From: Sorangium cellulosum
Lineage (GTDB): Bacteria > Myxococcota_A > Polyangia > Polyangiales > Polyangiaceae
Reading direction: 5' to 3'
Assembly (NCBI RefSeq): GCF_004135735.1
Contig: NZ_CP012670.1
Span: forward strand, 4,051,501 to 4,115,500
DNA length: 64,000 nucleotides
Shown: piece by piece, positions 16,812 to 25,212 of the stretch
Layout of the letters: each line of letters opens with the position of its first letter
Numbering within the stretch: position 1 is the first letter of the stretch
Translations under genes and position numbers: made by a program
The notes under the pieces: generated by a model
The model's input: only the letters and a program-made list of their open reading frames with translations
Database searches by the model: none
What the model was told of the DNA's origin: nothing

Positions 16812-17462
16812 TCAGCGCTCGTCAGGCGGGCGGCACGCCTCGCGGAACGCGCGGGCGCGGGCGACGAGCTCCTCGCGGCGCCCCTCGCGCAGGAGCTTGA
16901 GGTCCACGAGGCTCGTGCCGACGCCGACCGCCTCCGCGCCCGCCGCGAGGAAGGCGCCCACGTTGTCCAGCGTCGCGCCGCCGGTCGGCATGAGCGGGAT
17001 ATGCGGCAGCGGCGCCTTGACCGCCCTGAGGTACGCGGCGCCGCCGAGGGCGTCGCAGGGGAACACCTTGATGACGTCCCCGCCCGCCCGGTGGGCCGCC
17101 ACGATCTCGGTGGGGGTCAGCGCGCCGGGGGCGTGGACGACGTTCATCGCGAGGCACGCCCTCAGCGTCGGCTCGTCCAGCGCCGGGCTGACGATGAAGC
17201 GCGCCCCGGCCTCGACGCACGCCTCCGCGGTGGCGGGGTCGAGCACGGTGCCCGCGCCGACGAGCGCCCGATCGCCGTGGCGCGCGGTGATCTCACGCAC
17301 GACCTCCACCGCGCCGGGCACGGTCATCGTGATCTCGAGCACGTCGAGCCCCCCCTCGATGAGGGCCTCGACCGCCTGAAACGCCAGCTCGGCCGAGCTC
17401 GTGCGCACGATGGGGACGAGGCGCGTGCGCCTGATCCATGCGAGGACGTCTCCCTTGTTCAT
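16812..17462 (-). CDS. eda: 2-dehydro-3-deoxy-phosphogluconate (KDPG) aldolase
   Basis: The protein has 216 aa; GGGAGG lies just before the ATG at 17462. This is a class I aldolase: the Schiff-base lysine is in VIKVFPCD, the general acid/base Glu in VLEITMT, and phosphate-binding loops are GAGTVLD and MPTGGA. It cleaves KDPG (or the unphosphorylated keto-deoxy acid in some members) to pyruvate and glyceraldehyde 3-phosphate. It is the last gene of the uronate operon, 37 nt after the carrier gene, and would supply the final step of the pathway. A KDG kinase is not present in the window. Confidence 0.93.
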   Translation of the reverse strand: MNKGDVLAWIRRTRLVPIVRTSSAELAFQAVEALIEGGLDVLEITMTVPGAVEVVREITARHGDRALVGAGTVLDPATAEACVEAGARFIVSPALDEPTLRACLAMNVVHAPGALTPTEIVAAHRAGGDVIKVFPCDALGGAAYLRAVKAPLPHIPLMPTGGATLDNVGAFLAAGAEAVGVGTSLVDLKLLREGRREELVARARAFREACRPPDER

Positions 17463-17499: not shown

Positions 17500-19152
17500 T
17501 CATGGCGCCTCCGTGGCCTGGACCTGCGCCGCGGTCGGGCCCTCGTAGCCCTTGGCGGAAGCGCCCCTGGGCTCGACGACGGGCCGCGCGTCGCGGTCGA
17601 GCTTGATGAGCTCGACCTTGGTCCCCTCGGCCGTCGGCCAGAGATACCAGCGCGCATCCATCCAGCCCACGCGCGCCGCGGGGCCCTCGGTGGGCGCGCC
17701 CGTCGCCCCCAGCTGGGCGGACCGCGTCGCGCGGTAGTCCGCGACGGAGGCGTAGGGAGGACGGTTGAGGGCGAACTGCAGCCCCGCGATGCTGGCGAGC
17801 ATCACCGCGCCGCCGGCGACGATCGCCGCCTTCGGCACGCTCCGCTTGGGCGTGACCGGCTCGACCCGCGGCAGGACGAGGTGCAGCGCGAGCAGCCCGA
17901 TGAGGTACAGCGTCCCCGCGAGCAGGAACGGCAGGGCGTACGAGCCCGTGATCTTGAGCGACCAGCCCACGAAGATCTGGAAGAGCGCGCCGCCGACGAC
18001 GCCGAACGCGGTCATGACGCCGACCACCGTCGCCATGGCCGGACGCGGGAGGGCGTCCGAGACGAGCGTGTAGAGATTGCTGCTCCAGCCCTGGTGCGCG
18101 GCCGCGGCGAGCGACAGGATCGCGACCGCGACGAAGACCGTGGGGATGCCCGCGACGCTCGGGACGCCGACGAGCTGCCCGACCGCCATGACGGGCACCG
18201 CGGAGAGCGCGCAGACGAGCATCGCGAGCTTCCGCGCCGCGCCGACGGAGCGGCCGCCCGCGATGAGCCGCGAGGAGAGCCAGCCGCCGCCGACCGCGCC
18301 GCCGTCGGCCACGAGGAACACGACGGGGATCGCGTAGGCCATGAACGTCGGCTTGAGGTTGAACTCGCTGACGAGGAACTTCGGCAGCCAGGTGAGGTAG
18401 AACCACCACGGCGCGTCGGTGAAGAACTTCGCGGTGGCGACCGCGTACACGGGCCGCATCCCGAACACCTCGCCGACGCCGAGCGACTCGGTCGACTCCT
18501 TCGCGTCGGAGCGGATGTGCGCGAGCTCCTCGGGCGACACCTTCGGGTGCTCCTCGGGCCGCCGGTAGAGGCGATTCCAGAAGAAGATCCACACGACGCC
18601 GATGCCGCCCAGCAGGAGGAAGCAGGTGCGCCAGCCGTACGCCTCCGCGATGCGCACCGCGAGGAGCGGGGCGAGGATGGCGCCCACGTTCGAGCCGCAG
18701 TTGAACAGCCCGGTGGCGAGCGCCCGCTCTTTCTTGGGGAACCACTCGGCGACCGTGCGGACGGCGGAAGGGAAGTTGCCCGCCTCGCCGACCCCGAGCA
18801 GGAAGCGCACCCCGGCGAAGCCGGCGAAGCTGCCGACGGCGGCGTGGGCCGCCGAGGCGACGTTCCAGAGCAGGAACGTCGCGCTGAGCCCCTTGCCGGT
18901 GCCGATGCGGTCGATCCAGCGACCCACGAACACCATGCCGAAGCCGTAGGCGAGCAGGAAGCTCACGTTGATGAGCGCGAGGTCCGTCGGCCCGAGGCGC
19001 AGATCGTCCTCGAAGAACGGGATCAGCAGGGAGAAGAGCTGCCGATCGAGGTAGTTAATCGTCGTCGCGAAGAAGAGGAGCGCGCAGATGGTCCAGCGGA
19101 CCCGGGTGACAGTGCCCTGGCGCGCCGGGGCGACGGGGGATGACGCAGTCAT
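17500..19152 (-). CDS. MFS transporter, anion:cation symporter family (hexuronate/aldarate type)
   Basis: The protein has 550 aa. About twelve hydrophobic segments are visible, with ACS-family marks: INYLDRQLFSLLIPFF in helix 1, GVRFLLGVGEAGNFPSAV in helix 4, AEWFPKKERALATG after helix 4, and WFYLTWLPKFL in helix 7. ExuT/GarP-type carriers of this family import hexuronates or aldarates. A C-terminal tail of about 90 residues (including WMDARWYLWPTAEG) follows the last helix and is not usual for ExuT. The ATG overlaps the SDR stop (ATGA), so translation is coupled. Confidence 0.9.
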   Translation of the reverse strand: MTASSPVAPARQGTVTRVRWTICALLFFATTINYLDRQLFSLLIPFFEDDLRLGPTDLALINVSFLLAYGFGMVFVGRWIDRIGTGKGLSATFLLWNVASAAHAAVGSFAGFAGVRFLLGVGEAGNFPSAVRTVAEWFPKKERALATGLFNCGSNVGAILAPLLAVRIAEAYGWRTCFLLLGGIGVVWIFFWNRLYRRPEEHPKVSPEELAHIRSDAKESTESLGVGEVFGMRPVYAVATAKFFTDAPWWFYLTWLPKFLVSEFNLKPTFMAYAIPVVFLVADGGAVGGGWLSSRLIAGGRSVGAARKLAMLVCALSAVPVMAVGQLVGVPSVAGIPTVFVAVAILSLAAAAHQGWSSNLYTLVSDALPRPAMATVVGVMTAFGVVGGALFQIFVGWSLKITGSYALPFLLAGTLYLIGLLALHLVLPRVEPVTPKRSVPKAAIVAGGAVMLASIAGLQFALNRPPYASVADYRATRSAQLGATGAPTEGPAARVGWMDARWYLWPTAEGTKVELIKLDRDARPVVEPRGASAKGYEGPTAAQVQATEAP

Positions 19153-19922
19153 TGGTTCACCGCCGAAGCCAGGAAGCCGCCGTCGACAACGAGGCTCGTG
19201 CCGGTGACGAAGCTCACCGCGTCCGAGCAGAGGAAGAGCGCCGCGCCGACCAGCTCCTGCGTCTCGCCGAAGCGGCCGAGCGGGGTGCGGGTGAGCAGCT
19301 CCTGCCCGCGCGGCGTGCCCTCGAGGAGGGCGCGGTTGAGGTCGGTCACGAAGACGCCGGGCACGAGGGCGTTGGTCCGGATGCCGTGCTTCGCCCACTC
19401 GGTGCCGAGGCTCCGGGTGAGCGCCATGACGGCGGCCTTGGACGCGCCGTAGGCCGCCACCTCGTGGAACGCGACGAAGCTCGACAGCGAGGCGACGTTG
19501 ACGATGCGGCCGCGGCCGCTCTCGCGCAGGGGGCCGTGGAACGACTGGCAGGCGCGCAGCATGCCCGTGACGTTCGTGTCGAGCAGGCTGTTCCACTCCG
19601 CGTCGCCGACCTCGCTCGTGGGCTTGCGGAAGGTCCGGCCGGCGCAGTTGACGAGGATGTCGACGCCGCCGAGCGCCTCGAGGACCCGCTCGCGCAGGGC
19701 GTCGAGCGACGCCCGGTCGCCGACGTCGCACGTCGCCTCGAGCGAGCGGACCCCCCGGGCGCGGAGCTCGTCGGTGACCGCGCGCGCGCGGTCCGCCCGG
19801 GTGCCCGACGCGACGGTGTGGACCCCCGCCTCGGCGAGGCCGAGGGCGATCGCGCGCCCGATGCCGGACGTCCCGCCGATGACGACCGCCTTGCGGCCCG
19901 CGATGTCGAAGAGCTTGGTCAT
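19149..19922 (-). CDS. Short-chain dehydrogenase, KduD/gluconate-5-dehydrogenase-like
   Basis: The protein has 257 aa. The cofactor loop GGTSGIG, the NVASLSS serine, the YGASK catalytic Tyr-Lys pair and the VDGGF C-terminus are typical of classical SDR enzymes, and overall length fits KduD. In this operon it would reduce or oxidise a keto-deoxy-uronate or keto-aldonate intermediate. Its start and stop both overlap neighbours by four bases (ATGA). Confidence 0.88.
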   Translation of the reverse strand: MTKLFDIAGRKAVVIGGTSGIGRAIALGLAEAGVHTVASGTRADRARAVTDELRARGVRSLEATCDVGDRASLDALRERVLEALGGVDILVNCAGRTFRKPTSEVGDAEWNSLLDTNVTGMLRACQSFHGPLRESGRGRIVNVASLSSFVAFHEVAAYGASKAAVMALTRSLGTEWAKHGIRTNALVPGVFVTDLNRALLEGTPRGQELLTRTPLGRFGETQELVGAALFLCSDAVSFVTGTSLVVDGGFLASAVNQ

Positions 19923-21037
19923 GCCTTCAGCCACTCCCCCGCGATGCCGCCCAGGAGCGCCCGCGCGTCGCGCTCGATCTGGGCGTCGGTCGGCGGGACG
20001 GGCATCGCGCCGTAGCGCCGCGTGAGCGCGCTCGCGATCGAGCGCCGCGAGTGGCGCCACTTGTAGATGAGCTGATCGAGGACGCGCGCGTCGGAGTGCT
20101 GGGGCACGAACGTCGGCCCGAGCATCTCCAGGCGCATCATGGTCGTCTCCTCGATGAGGCTCGGGTTGTTCATGAACCACCAGCAGCCGAACGGGAGGAC
20201 GTTGGCGAACTTCCGCGCCACGACGCAGAGGGTGTGCGTGTTCTCGCGCGCGAGCGTCGTGACCAGGAAGCGGACGTCGGGGTTCTCCGCGGCGAGCCGC
20301 TCGAGCGGGGTCAGGTCGACGGCGCTCACCCCGTCGCCGGCCACGCCGAGGCGGGGGTTCACCGCGCGCCGGACACCGATCATCATCGCGAACGGCAGGT
20401 CGTGCTCGCGGCACGCGTCCAGCACCGCCCGGGGCGGGGCCGAGACCTCGTTGACGGAGATCGCGAGGTAGCGCGGCCGCATCCGGGCGATCCACCGCGT
20501 GAGCTCGGCCTTCAGATCCTGCGCGGCGATGAGGCGATCGAGGCGCAGCGCGGCGTGGAACCGCGGATCGGGCGCGAGGCCCGCCTCCCAGAGCGCGCGC
20601 TCCTCCGGATCGGTCGGGTCGTTCGTCATCGCGAGCGCGCTCACGCCGGCGAGGCGCAGCACGTCCTCCACGTGCTGCTCGACCCGGCGCGCGGCGAAGA
20701 AGGCGCGTGCCTCGCGCAGGTCCCTGGCGGCGGGGTCGAGGCCGAAGGCGGCGAGCACGGTCGCGACGCCCGCGGCGGCCTCGGACAGCGGCGAGCGGCG
20801 GACGAAGAGCGCGTCCCACACGAGGTCGGCCTGCGCCGCCTTGTCGCGGGCGAAGAACGCCTCGGGCGCGAGCTTCGGCTCGGCGCGGAGGGTCTCGGCG
20901 ACGAGGTAGTGATAGGTCAAGAGCTCGTCGACGCCCCACAGGTTCATCGCGCCGAACTGGGGCGCGAACAGGTGTGTGTGGAGATCGATGACGGGCGCGG
21001 CGTCGACGGCTCTGGCAACGCGCTCGGCGAGGGTCAT
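19919..21037 (-). CDS. Uronate-isomerase-like amidohydrolase-fold protein
   Basis: The protein has 372 aa. It opens with [14 protein letters not shown] (metal-binding HxH of amidohydrolase barrels) and has [29 protein letters not shown] and [20 protein letters not shown] near the end. This resembles the glucuronate/uronate isomerase family but is about 100 residues shorter than UxaC, so it belongs to a divergent branch. The role proposed, isomerising galacturonate or glucuronate to the keto acid, is inferred from family and operon. It overlaps both neighbours by 4 bp. Confidence 0.75.
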
Positions 21038-22275
21038 CTCGGCACCTCAGGGATGCGGTCGTCCTTGGGATCGGCCCAGCGCTCGTTCGGCACGGTGGCC
21101 GACCAGCCCGGGCGCAGCGGGTCTCTGTCGTAGGGATAGGAGCCCAGGCGGCGGTACTCCTCGGCGTAGTGAGCGAGCTTGTCGCGGTCGAGGCGCACGC
21201 CCAGGCCGGGGCCCTCGGGGACGCGGATGCGGCCGTTCCGGTACGGGAGCGGGCCCCCCTGGATCACGTCGTCTCTCAGGTGGTGATAATGCGCGTCGGC
21301 GGCGAACGAGAGGTTCGGGATCACCGCCCCGAGGTGCAGCATCGTGGCGAGCTGCACGCCGAGCTCGCCCGAGGAGTGGACCGCGACGCCGAGGCCGAAC
21401 GTCTCGCAGATCCCGGCCGCCTTCACGCAGGGCCGGATGCCGCCCCAGAACGTCGTGTCGAGCAGGATGACGTCCACGGCCGTGTCGAGCACGTTCGCGG
21501 CGAGCTGCTCGAAGTTGACGACGACGGTGTTCGTCGCGAGCGGCATCCGCACCTTCTCGCGGGTGCGCCGCATCGCGTGCAGGCCGAAGACGGGGTCCTC
21601 CAGGTAGTCGTTGTTCAGGTCCTCGATCGCCTGCCCGAAGCGGATGCCCTGCTCCGTCGACCAGACGGCGTTCGGATCGAAGCGGACGCGATCTCCCCCG
21701 ACGGCGTGGGCCACGGCGCGGTAGCACTCGAGCTCGTAATCCGGGTGGAAGACGCCGCCCTTGAGCTTGTGCGAGGTGAACCCGTGCTCCTTCTTCAGCG
21801 CCTTCGCGTGCTCCACGAGCTGCTCCGGCGTGCGCACCTCGCCGGAGCCGTCGGGGTTCGCGAAGCGGAAGAAGAGGTAGGAGGCGAAGGGGACCTCGTC
21901 CTGCAGCTTGCCGCCGAGGAGGTCGTGGACCGGCACGCCGAAGGCCTGCCCGAGCAGGTCGAGGCAGGCGAACTCCAGCGCGGCGAGGATCTGGGTGCGG
22001 TTGTTGTAGAGAGAGGCCGTCGGGTTCGCGATCCGGAACCGCATCTCCTCGAGGCGGGCGGGGTCGTGGCCCACGAGATAGGCCTTCATCGCCCGGAACA
22101 CGGCCTCGGCCGACTCGCCGCCGCCGCCCATCTCGCCGAGGCCGACGAGCCCGTTGTCCGCCTCGACCTCGACGAGGGTGCGCACGAAGCGACCCCAGTG
22201 GCAGCCGTTCGCGTGGCGCAGGGGCGCCTCGAGCGGGACGGTGACGGTGGTGGCGCGGATATCGACAATCCTCAT
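21034..22275 (-). CDS. Enolase-superfamily sugar-acid dehydratase (glucarate dehydratase-like)
   Basis: The protein has 413 aa. The acid-sugar dehydratase motifs are in order: SHKLKGG (KxK base), RFDPNAVWS and YLEDPV (metal ligands Asp and Glu), LATNTVV (Asn, glucarate dehydratase mark) and AVHSSGELG (catalytic His). GlucD-type enzymes dehydrate glucarate or galactarate to a keto-deoxy-glucarate. It is the first gene of the uronate operon, and the region upstream (22276-22779) carries a striking palindrome array that may be the operator. Confidence 0.85.
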
Positions 22276-22779
22276 GCAGGACGTGCTCCCGGGGACCGGC
22301 GGTGAAGGGGCGAGTCCATCGGCGACGGCCCCTCCGTTGTGCGTCGTCGTGCTTCACGCCCGCGCTCCCGCGCGCGCGGCGGAACAGACGTTGGTCAGAG
22401 AAGGAATCGAAGTGTCGTTTTCGGCTCCCGACGACTGGGCGTCTCGCAGACGCCAGATGAGCCCTCAGAACGAGTGGACGGGCAACGAGCTCGTACGCAC
22501 GGAGTTTTCCGTTCGGCACGGGAGTATTCCCGACCAGTACGGAAGCTTTCCGTGCGGCGCGGGAGTATTCCCGACCAGCACGGAAGTGATCACGGCTCGT
22601 GACGAAAGATCAGGGAGCCATCCCACCACCGTCGATGGCGGCGCGCGACGCGCGCGTCGGCTCCCGGGCGGGGGCGCGCGTCGTGGTGTCCTGGTGTCGT
22701 GAAGAGCGAACGAGCGACCGGAGTCGCCTCTGCGATCACGAGGCGACTCCGGCGCGCGCGGGGCGCGGCGAGGGCGTCG
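22276..22779. other. Region between pheT and the uronate operon, no gene
   Basis: No credible coding sequence lies in these 504 bp, which separate two minus-strand transcription units. It must hold the end of the pheST message and the promoter of the uronate operon. Its main structure is the palindromic tandem repeat at 22498-22595. Confidence 0.5.
22498..22595. repeat. Tandem 40/41-bp repeats with two nested palindromes (operator candidate)
   Basis: Two full units (22498-22537, 22538-22578) and one partial unit (22579-22595) each begin with ACGGAA-type sequence and end with CCCGACCAG. Each full unit contains the palindrome CGGGAGTATTCCCG. Unit 2 also has CGGAAGCTTTCCG, of which unit 1 has a variant. 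It lies about 220 bp upstream of the first gene of the uronate operon. Confidence 0.7.
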
Positions 22780-25212
22780 TCAGCGCTGCTGGGCGCCGAA
22801 GCGCGCCTTGGCGGCGTCCACCGCGGCGCGCGTCCACCGATCGACCTCGTCGTCGGTCAGGGTGCGCTCGGGCGAGCGGAACCAGAGGGCGAAGCCGAGC
22901 GAGTGGGTCCCGGGCGGGAGCTCGCTGCCGCGGTAGCGATCGAACAGCTCCACCTTCTCGCAGCGCTCGCCGGCCGTGGTGCGCAGCACGTCGAGCACCT
23001 GGCCCGCCGGCACGTCGAGCGGCAGGAGGAGCGCCACGTCGTGCCGCATCGCCGGGAACCGGCTCGGCTTCACGGCCACCGGCGCGCGGTACGAGCGCGC
23101 CACGGCCTGGAGATCGAGCTCCGCCGCCACCGCGCCGGCGGTGAGCTCCAGCGCGTCGCGCACGTCCGGGTGGAGCTCCGCCACGTGCCCGACGGGGCGG
23201 CCGTCGAGCGTGACGCGGGCGCCCTTGCGCGGGTGCGCCCACGGCGGGGGCTCCCCCTCCAGGTCGAGCGCCGCCGCTGCGCTGCCGGCGAGCTCCGCCA
23301 GCACCGCCTCGACCACGCCCTTTCCGTCGTAGAAATCGACGTCCTCGGGCGGCGACAGGTACGTGTCGCGCGGCCCCGCGAGGAGGATCGCGAGCCGGGT
23401 CGGCTCGTCCACGGGCGGCCGCTCGACCCCGCCCGCGCCGCGCTCGGCGGAGGCCTCGCCCTGCCGGGGCAGGAACACCTGGCTCACCTCGAACAGCCGC
23501 ACCCGGGGCACGTTGTACCGCTGCGCGCGCTGCGCGACCGTGAGGAGCCCCGGGATGAGCGACGGGCGCATCACCGACTTCTCCTCGGAGAGCGGGTTCT
23601 GCAGCCGGAGGACCGGCGCGTCGGCGAGGCCCGCCGCCTTGAGATCCCCGGGCGAGAGGAACGAGTACGTCACCGCCTCGTGCAGCCCGATGCCGGTGCA
23701 GAGCTGGCGCACGCGGCGCCGGAGCCGGTAATCGCCCTTCGCGCCGGCGGGCGCCGCCGCGATGCGCGGGAGCCGGCTCGGGATCTGGTCGTAGCCGGCG
23801 ACGCGCGCGACCTCCTCGATGAGGTCGATCTCCTCGGCGATGTCGGGCCGGTGCGCCGGCACGTCGACGACGAGCGCGTCGGCCTGCTGCTCCACGATCG
23901 CGATGCCCAGCGTGGTCAGGATCTCGCGCGTCCGCGCCGGGGCCTCGGCCCCGATGATCCGCTGGTAGCGGGGCAGCCGGAGCGTCAGGCGGCGCGGGGC
24001 GCGGGGCGCGACGTACGCGTCGATCGGCTCGCCCGCCGCCTCGCCGCCGGCCAGCTCGCAGATGAGGGCGCTCCCGCGGTCGCGCGACAGGGGGACCCCC
24101 GAGACGTCCACCTCCCGCTCGAAGCGGTGCGACGCCTCGGTGTGGAAGCCGTACCGGCGCGCGGTGCGCCGGATCCCGCGCGGCTCGAAGTAGGCCGACT
24201 CGAGGAACACCCGGCGCGTCGCCGCGGTGACGCCGCTGTCCGCGCCCCCGATCACGCCGGCCAGGGCCAGGACGCGCTCCGCGTCGGCGATCACGAGGTC
24301 GTCCTCGTGCAAGGAGAGCTGCTGCCCGTCGAGCGCGACGAACGCCTCGCCCGGCCGGGCCCTCCGGATCGCGATCGGCAGGCGCAGCGTGTCGAGATCG
24401 AAGGCGTGCAGCGGCTGCCCCCGCTCGAGCATCACCAGGTTGGTCGCGTCGACGAGGTTGCTGATCGGCCGGACCCCGAGGCGGCTCAGCCGCACCCGCG
24501 CCCAGAGCGGCGACGGGCCTACGCGGACCCCCTCGATCACCTGGCCGGCGTACCGGGGGCACCCCTCCTTGCTGCGCACCTCCACGGCCGCGCGCGCCCC
24601 GCCGCCGCCCGCCCGCGGCGGCGCGACGCCGGGCGGCTGGAAGGGGAGCCCGAGCACCGCGGCCACGTCCCGGGCCACGCCGAGGTGGCCCAGCGCGTCG
24701 GGCCGGTTCGGCGTGACGCTGAGCTCGATGATCCAGTCCTCGAGGCGCGGCTCCCAGTCGAGCAGCGACTGCCCGGGGCGACCGCCCTCGATCGTCAACA
24801 GCCCCTCGTGGCTCGAGCCGAGCCCGAGCTCGTCCTCGGCGCAGAGCATGCCGGGCGAGGTGATGCCGGCGACCGCCTTCTCGGTCAGGGTGATGCGCGC
24901 GCCGCTGCGATCCAGGACCTGCGCCCCCACGGGCGCATAGCAGACGAGCGCCGGCGCGGGCGGGATGACCGGCGCGCCGCACACCACCTCCACCTCCCGG
25001 CCGCCGGCGTCCACGCGGACCAGCGTGAGCCCCTTCCTGTTGGGGTGCGGCCGCGTCGCGACGACGCTCGCGAGGACGACCGGGCGCAGCGAGGCGCCGA
25101 CGTGCGTCACGCGGTCGACCTCGAGCCCGCCGCGGCCGAGCGCCGATACCACGGCGTCGACGCCGGGATCGGCGCCGAGGATCTCTTTCGTCCACTGGTA
25201 GGATATCAACAT
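22780..25212 (-). CDS. pheT: Phenylalanine-tRNA ligase beta subunit
   Basis: The protein has 810 aa, the usual bacterial length. It begins MLISYQWTKEILG and then shows the tRNA-binding domain (about 40-150), the B3/B4 editing domain (about 210-380), B5 (about 400-475), the inactive synthetase-like core, and the C-terminal ferredoxin-fold anticodon-binding domain, with FALWFRSPERTLTDDEVD near the end. The enzyme is an alpha2-beta2 tetramer with PheS, in the cytoplasm. The gene lies 33 nt after pheS and is surely co-transcribed. Confidence 0.97.
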   Translation of the reverse strand: MLISYQWTKEILGADPGVDAVVSALGRGGLEVDRVTHVGASLRPVVLASVVATRPHPNRKGLTLVRVDAGGREVEVVCGAPVIPPAPALVCYAPVGAQVLDRSGARITLTEKAVAGITSPGMLCAEDELGLGSSHEGLLTIEGGRPGQSLLDWEPRLEDWIIELSVTPNRPDALGHLGVARDVAAVLGLPFQPPGVAPPRAGGGGARAAVEVRSKEGCPRYAGQVIEGVRVGPSPLWARVRLSRLGVRPISNLVDATNLVMLERGQPLHAFDLDTLRLPIAIRRARPGEAFVALDGQQLSLHEDDLVIADAERVLALAGVIGGADSGVTAATRRVFLESAYFEPRGIRRTARRYGFHTEASHRFEREVDVSGVPLSRDRGSALICELAGGEAAGEPIDAYVAPRAPRRLTLRLPRYQRIIGAEAPARTREILTTLGIAIVEQQADALVVDVPAHRPDIAEEIDLIEEVARVAGYDQIPSRLPRIAAAPAGAKGDYRLRRRVRQLCTGIGLHEAVTYSFLSPGDLKAAGLADAPVLRLQNPLSEEKSVMRPSLIPGLLTVAQRAQRYNVPRVRLFEVSQVFLPRQGEASAERGAGGVERPPVDEPTRLAILLAGPRDTYLSPPEDVDFYDGKGVVEAVLAELAGSAAAALDLEGEPPPWAHPRKGARVTLDGRPVGHVAELHPDVRDALELTAGAVAAELDLQAVARSYRAPVAVKPSRFPAMRHDVALLLPLDVPAGQVLDVLRTTAGERCEKVELFDRYRGSELPPGTHSLGFALWFRSPERTLTDDEVDRWTRAAVDAAKARFGAQQR

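Follow-up and report, generated by a model that had tools for sequence, protein, structure and literature searches.

A candidate ECF sigma factor promoter in front of a uronate operon of Sorangium cellulosum and the putative glucuronoxylan regulon to which it may belong

What purpose does the repetitive DNA between pheT and an operon for the use of acid sugars serve in Sorangium cellulosum? Within the window, by which we mean the entire 64,000-nucleotide stretch of DNA analysed here, this intergenic region harbours a tandem array which the original prediction placed at 22498-22595 and interpreted as a multi-site palindromic operator of a dimeric regulator encoded outside the window. The first four genes of the adjacent operon (Table 1) overlap by 4 bp at each of their three junctions. 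The first one, whose top NCBIfam match, glucarate dehydratase, remains under the cut-off, has orthologues of 93-95% identity in four of the five other Sorangium genomes searched.

The array and its counterparts in congeners

The tandem array is clearly real, as copies 1 and 2 are direct repeats which agree at 37 of 41 positions (90%). This is the top self-match of any 41-mer in the intergenic region, the maximum over 300 dinucleotide shuffles being 28 of 41. TRF places the array at 22497-22586 and describes it by a period of 41 with 2.2 copies or, alternatively, as about 4.5 degenerate 21-bp units. Its GC content amounts to 0.615 compared to 0.728 for the window, in agreement with its original description as less GC-rich than the surroundings. 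The nested palindromes described along with it hold in part: the 14-bp core CGGGAGTATTCCCG is exactly present in both copies (22519-22532 and 22560-22573), but it deviates from its own reverse complement at two positions, which renders the array palindromes imperfect. A search of the 11.26-Mb single-contig genome for further copies, as had been proposed, yielded no occurrence of CGGGAGTATTCCCG beyond the array at up to one mismatch, and the idea of a genome-wide family of this sequence was dropped. A search of 59 relatives with the array DNA gave weak matches in four congeners which share a common part of the query and which we dismissed as chance; the three inspected (L005, L012, L013) all fall within one conserved coding sequence.

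A different element is conserved with the operon. In gene orientation, GTGATCA-N14-GGGAATWC is found upstream of it in all five Sorangium genomes which have the operon. In the four congeners this bipartite element is present as a single copy, and the palindrome arms are not conserved. The upstream neighbour of the operon is pheT in the window genome, an ArsR-like gene in G001 and a PAS-like gene in G003 and G004 (both names reflect our own reading of the sequences); the neighbours in the congeners are thus other genes or are not visible at a contig edge. As the element stays with the operon despite the changing neighbour, it belongs to the uronate operon rather than to pheT, which is in line with the original assignment. 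In the four congeners an additional block, GAGCTCGTTG, follows GGGAAT at a distance of 39-42 nt (0, 3, 1 and 3 mismatches). In the window genome this distance is 80 nt, the increase being due to the 41-bp insertion. The block may possibly act as a further regulatory site early in the leader. In the extended form GAGCTCGTTG(CAATTT) the block is seen in the window as well as in the upstream regions of L034 and L036, and a near copy of it, GAGCTCATTG, follows the promoter of the dioxygenase gene at L141.

Read towards the uronate operon, i.e. on the minus strand, TGATCA-N14-GGGAATA opens the array. The TGATCA hexamer is situated within the limits originally given for the array, outside its repeat units, and had received no mention. 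Scanning of the window reveals the corresponding site as the only one with fewer than three mismatches; hence, the pectate lyase gene of the window has none. Copy 2 deviates from the 13-letter core at four positions. The best explanation of the array seems to be that it represents the promoter of the uronate operon whose -10 segment has been tandemly duplicated in this lineage. Copy 1 would then contain a complete promoter, while copy 2, in which the -35 box is missing, does not look like an independent one. Counted from the first T of TGATCA, transcription is predicted to start 35 nt downstream. The end of pheT (minus strand) is at 22780, and the inverted repeat following its stop is likely the pheT terminator, separate from the array. 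An Rfam search of 21500-23500 gave just one match, a sub-threshold one to a plant microRNA, located on this inverted repeat.

Table 1. Positions of the features discussed. L numbers denote loci; genes downstream of the motif were typed by Pfam.
Feature	Position or locus	Strand	Remark
Predicted ECF promoter, -35 box TGATCA	22587-22592	minus	identical spacing in 5 of 5 Sorangium operons
Predicted -10 box GGGAATA, copy 1, full context	22566-22572	minus	part of exact N14 site 22566-22592
-10 of copy 2	22525-22531	minus	GGAAAG at TGATCA position
Predicted transcription start	22557	minus	from sites with ATG 34-35 nt downstream
Array, two 41-bp units and partial third	about 22497-22587	minus	repeat analysis
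Copy 1, 41-bp unit with -10 of the predicted complete promoter	22544-22584	minus	TGATCA spacing equals that of congeners
Copy 2, tandem duplicate 41-bp unit	22503-22543	minus	absent from four congeners
Block GAGCTCGTTG	22483-22492	minus	partly conserved in four congeners
Candidate pheT terminator, 13-bp perfect inverted repeat	22718-22752		27 bp past pheT stop
Operon gene 1, enolase-superfamily acid-sugar dehydratase	21034-22275	minus	Pfam MR_MLE_C, MR_MLE_N
372-aa protein	19919-21037	minus	no Pfam or NCBIfam match
SDR oxidoreductase, KduD/gluconate 5-dehydrogenase-like	19149-19922	minus	Pfam, NCBIfam
MFS transporter, galactonate-transporter-like	17500-19152	minus	Pfam, NCBIfam
KDPG/KHG aldolase	16812-17462	minus	TIGR01182 above cut-off
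ECF sigma factor, 208 aa	about 6,683,256-6,683,879 of this genome		Pfam, NCBIfam
GH10 xylanase downstream of motif	L136 (this genome), L147
GH11 xylanase downstream of motif	L146, L156, L163
GH43 downstream of motif	L154
GH115 alpha-glucuronidase downstream of motif	L153
GH30, then glucuronoyl esterase, downstream of motif	L132 (this genome)
CBM2 and glucuronoyl esterase downstream of motif	L157
CBM2 downstream of motif	L140
Acetylesterase downstream of motif	L142
Polysaccharide deacetylase downstream of motif	L145
Glucose/sorbosone dehydrogenase downstream of motif	L149
DUF1592/DUF1588 proteins downstream of motif	L131, L133, L155		L133 with DUF1552 neighbour (Pfam)
Intradiol-type dioxygenase downstream of motif	L135, L141, L164
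Methyltransferase downstream of motif	L143

The bipartite motif across the genus and the genes behind it

If the spacing between both boxes is left free, TGATCA-N(8-20)-GGGAATW matches 52 times in six Sorangium genomes, 45 times at N14 (N11, three; N18, two; N15 and N16, one each), and the reversed pattern does not match at all in these genomes. In a further set of 91 relatives the N14 form turned up sporadically, 13 of them having any match. As judged with our own codon-usage gene caller, 43 of the 44 N14 sites outside the window are intergenic and 42 are followed by a called gene of the same orientation; the exceptions are L152, which lies within a coding sequence, and L164, after which the caller placed a short ORF in the opposite orientation. 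Of the seven sites with other spacings, five are located in coding sequence and two in front of a gene on the opposite strand, none directly preceding a gene of its own orientation. The frequency table of the 45 N14 sites reads C-R-TGATCA-N13-C-GGGAATW with little information past +27, which leaves the right arm of the palindrome, CTCCCG, outside the signal. Dyad symmetry as predicted for an operator is accordingly not a conserved property: the right arm is nearly free of information across the N14 sites, and the orthologous promoters are devoid of the palindromes. What the N14 sites do display is the layout expected of an ECF promoter, namely two boxes at a fixed spacing directed towards a gene, even though the -10 sequence GGGAATW is, to our knowledge, unlike other ECF -10 boxes.

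At four DUF1592 genes (L131, L144, L165, L218) the distance from the initial T of TGATCA to the called ATG is 34-35 nt, which fits transcription starting at this very ATG and would give rise to leaderless messages. For some genes the distance from the site to the called start amounts to 200-550 nt, implying either long leaders or wrong start calls. The GH10 xylanase gene at L136 is preceded by two complete N14 promoter sequences 426 bp apart (G000:C1 10,555,449 and 10,555,875).

Many of the genes behind the motif code for enzymes of glucuronoxylan breakdown (Table 1). In a test which is partly circular because the families were picked after having been sighted downstream of the motif, sites with up to one mismatch were found in sense orientation within 900 bp upstream of five out of 24 GH11, seven out of 30 GH10 and six out of nine GH115 genes (18/63 in total), compared to 1/63 on the antisense strand of the same regions; the other 45 of these 63 genes have no site at this threshold. 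The GH10 set comprises 30 of 36 matches, six without a locus having been left out. The window genome contributes a site at one GH10 and, with one mismatch, at one GH115 gene, and none at its four GH11 genes. Imperfect cores are present at L137, L138 and L139, with the L137 site upstream of GH115. A truncated second GH115 frame with an internal TAA (L294, G000:C1 7,785,152-7,785,715) precedes the intact one by about 2 kb. Upstream of a group of GH11 genes (L247, L248, L249, L250) a TGATCA-like and a GGCAT-like sequence form a conserved pair, e.g. TGATCAAAATGTGCATACCCGGCATGC in L247, which might be a promoter read by another ECF paralogue.

Pairs of the DUF1592/DUF1588 plus DUF1552 type are among the commonest neighbours of the motif (L131, L133, L144, L155, L159, L165, L219; assigned by Pfam for L131, L133 and L155 and by our own reading of the sequence for the other loci). 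We know of no role in xylan use for DUF1592/DUF1552 pairs, the dioxygenase or the methyltransferase; the frequency of the DUF pairs beside the motif suggests a role of these proteins in lignocellulose use.

A candidate sigma factor

Among the genes preceded by the motif is that of a 208-aa protein, encoded about 2.6 Mb away from the operon, which makes it a candidate for the regulator rightly expected outside the window. The protein exceeds the cut-offs for Sigma70_r2 (29.0 bits, cut-off 24), Sigma70_r4_2 (55.9, cut-off 25.7) and TIGR02937 (75.9, cut-off 42.9), and sigma regions 1.1 and 3 gave no Pfam match in it (E 0.01), as membership in the ECF group (group 4) requires. Among proteins of solved structure its closest relatives belong to the ECF sigma factors, RpoE (1or7) being an example. 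The gene is followed by that of a 257-aa protein and, two genes on, by that of a GH8 enzyme. The 257-aa protein contains, according to our reading of its sequence, a probable membrane segment and is conserved beside many ECF homologues; neither Pfam nor NCBIfam matched it to an anti-sigma family. This membrane-type protein, encoded downstream of the ECF gene, may be the anti-sigma factor of the ECF protein.

Orthologues of the sigma factor, 80-85% identical, are present in all five other Sorangium genomes, and about 150 bp upstream of the gene the element recurs in all six (four exact, two with one mismatch), beginning 12-13 bp past the preceding gene at L134, L151 and L162. To cover homologues more broadly we used the relaxed form TGATC-N15-GGNNAT, which corresponds to the N14 spacing, on 33 upstream regions, 30 of them loci from one homologue search and three of 14 from another, among the matches listed. 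The N14 spacing occurs in 21 of the 33 (6/6 from Sorangium, 15/27 others) and N15 in one, with no other spacing between 8 and 21; the relaxed N14 element is missing in 12 of these regions. On the antisense strand N14 was obtained twice and N17 and N18 once each. The -10 half varies among the homologues (GGGAAT, GGGCAT, GGCCAT, GGCAAT, GGGGAT, GGAGAT). The representatives of two other genera, G066 and G069, have ECF homologues as well. Their sites precede lipoprotein-like reading frames, and those of G066 also a glucose/sorbosone dehydrogenase and a DUF6807 protein, with a DUF1592 protein lying further downstream. A paralogue in the window genome, 48% identical, has TGATCG-N14-GGAGATT just upstream (L212 position 2121; G000:C1 10,119,620). 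As TGATCR-N(8-20)-GGAGATW matches 39 times in the six genomes with only three matches at N14, i.e. without enrichment of this spacing, we do not claim a second regulon of the GGAGATW type.

Proposed mechanism, alternatives and relation to known systems

We consider it probable that the TGATCA/GGGAATW promoter puts a glucuronoxylan regulon, including the operon of the window, under the control of an autoregulated ECF sigma factor. The sequences show the bipartite motif, the exactness of its spacing, where and in which orientation it stands, which families are encoded behind it, and that it occurs in front of the ECF gene and many of its homologues. We infer that the 208-aa protein itself reads the motif. 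It would recognise CRTGATCA-N13-CGGGAATW, with TGATCA serving as -35 and GGGAATW as -10 box, and would drive its own gene from the same type of promoter, the signal presumably being xylan or a xylan fragment. The regulon would couple secreted glucuronoxylan breakdown by xylanases, alpha-glucuronidase, glucuronoyl and acetyl esterases and GH8 to the intracellular use of uronic acids. Xylan chemistry suggests the link, as 4-O-methyl-glucuronic or glucuronic acid set free from the polymer would be the natural substrate of the operon. The regulon looks centred on xylan and not on pectin, since the pectate lyase gene of the window is without a site. The 41-bp duplication of the -10 segment would have arisen in this lineage, leaving copy 1 as a complete promoter. 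If it has an effect, this might lie in a leader hairpin or in the wider spacing of block GAGCTCGTTG.

The same regulon data would also apply if TGATCA-N14-GGGAATW were the site of one transcription factor or of two adjacent ones, with the ECF gene merely another target, and TGATCA is indeed palindromic by itself. We nevertheless regard this as unlikely since the boxes are unlike each other, kept at one fixed spacing and directed towards genes, with the ATG of one family at the distance expected for a start site, and since, in other genera too, the element is found with members of the ECF family, its -10 half varying between homologues. It is quite improbable, too, that copy 2 acts in the mRNA leader, where transcription from copy 1 would put a stable hairpin near the 5' end. 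The minus strand of the array does fold better than shuffled sequences (z -3.8), but tandem near-palindromes fold well anyway. The operator of a dimeric, uronate-sensing regulator, be it on top of or instead of a promoter, would profit from copies 41 bp apart, which is near four helical turns, and from identical 14-bp cores, and the genome would lack further sites if the regulator had just one target. Yet the four congener operons do not share the palindromes, other sites show no conservation of the right arm, and the conserved letters make up two unlike boxes 14 bp apart, so that we hold the multi-site operator, as originally put forward, to be very improbable. That the array is part of a pheT terminator, a reading suggested by its location between pheT and the operon, has a practically negligible chance of being correct given the separate inverted repeat next to pheT and the retention of the element with operons which do not neighbour pheT.

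Beyond the preferred reading, an ECF sigma factor promoter, a wider picture is conceivable, although we would rather doubt than assert it. In Polyangiaceae, an ECF family may share the -35 box TGATCR and a rigid 14-bp spacing and differ in its -10 boxes (GGGAAT, GGGCAT, GGCCAT, GGCAAT, GGAGAT), with one regulon per paralogue. One member would govern glucuronoxylan use, the secreted enzymes as well as the uronate operon of the window, whose duplicated -10 half might be raw material for promoter evolution.

Autoregulation is frequent among ECF sigma factors without being universal, and the same applies to a cognate anti-sigma factor. Autoregulated ECF sigma factors carry the element of their targets in their own promoter. 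The present system resembles them in that the upstream region of the ECF gene contains the element of the putative targets, and differs by the unusual -10 box GGGAATW and a putative broad glucuronoxylan regulon. Another ECF sigma factor whose -35 box is of the TGATC type is RpoE of Rhodobacter sphaeroides, which we take to belong to ECF11. As given in the available part of the source, its promoter reads TGATCC(N15)GCGTA (PMC5036791); in contrast to the system described here, which has GGGAATW as -10 box, RpoE combines GCGTA with an oxidative-stress regulon and the anti-sigma factor ChrR. Control of polysaccharide-degrading enzymes by ECF sigma and anti-sigma factors is described for Bacteroides and Clostridium thermocellum in the available portion of a review which calls the ECF control of hemicellulase genes less understood (PMC10766802); neither Sorangium nor "myxobacter-" occurs in its text. 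Common to these systems, as far as that portion goes, and the present one is a sigma factor switching on enzymes for plant polysaccharides, while the lineages are others and the partner protein found here is without a recognised anti-sigma or carbohydrate-binding domain.

For strain So0157-2, 109 sigma factors are stated in the accessible part of PMC3696898, and Sorangium ECF sigma factors have been placed in groups 220 and 276 according to that of PMC8999054. Our literature search found no paper in which a Sorangium sigma factor is tied to a regulon for plant polysaccharides; a motif for the group of this ECF protein may be published. What appears to be new is the recognition of a set of Sorangium genes for the digestion of wood xylan whose expression would, judging from sequence features, depend on a single dedicated sigma factor that also regulates itself. 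In a genus with around a hundred sigma factors per genome and polysaccharide-degrading enzymes in the hundreds, the motif offers a testable combination of sigma factor, promoter sequence, target list and substrate hypothesis.
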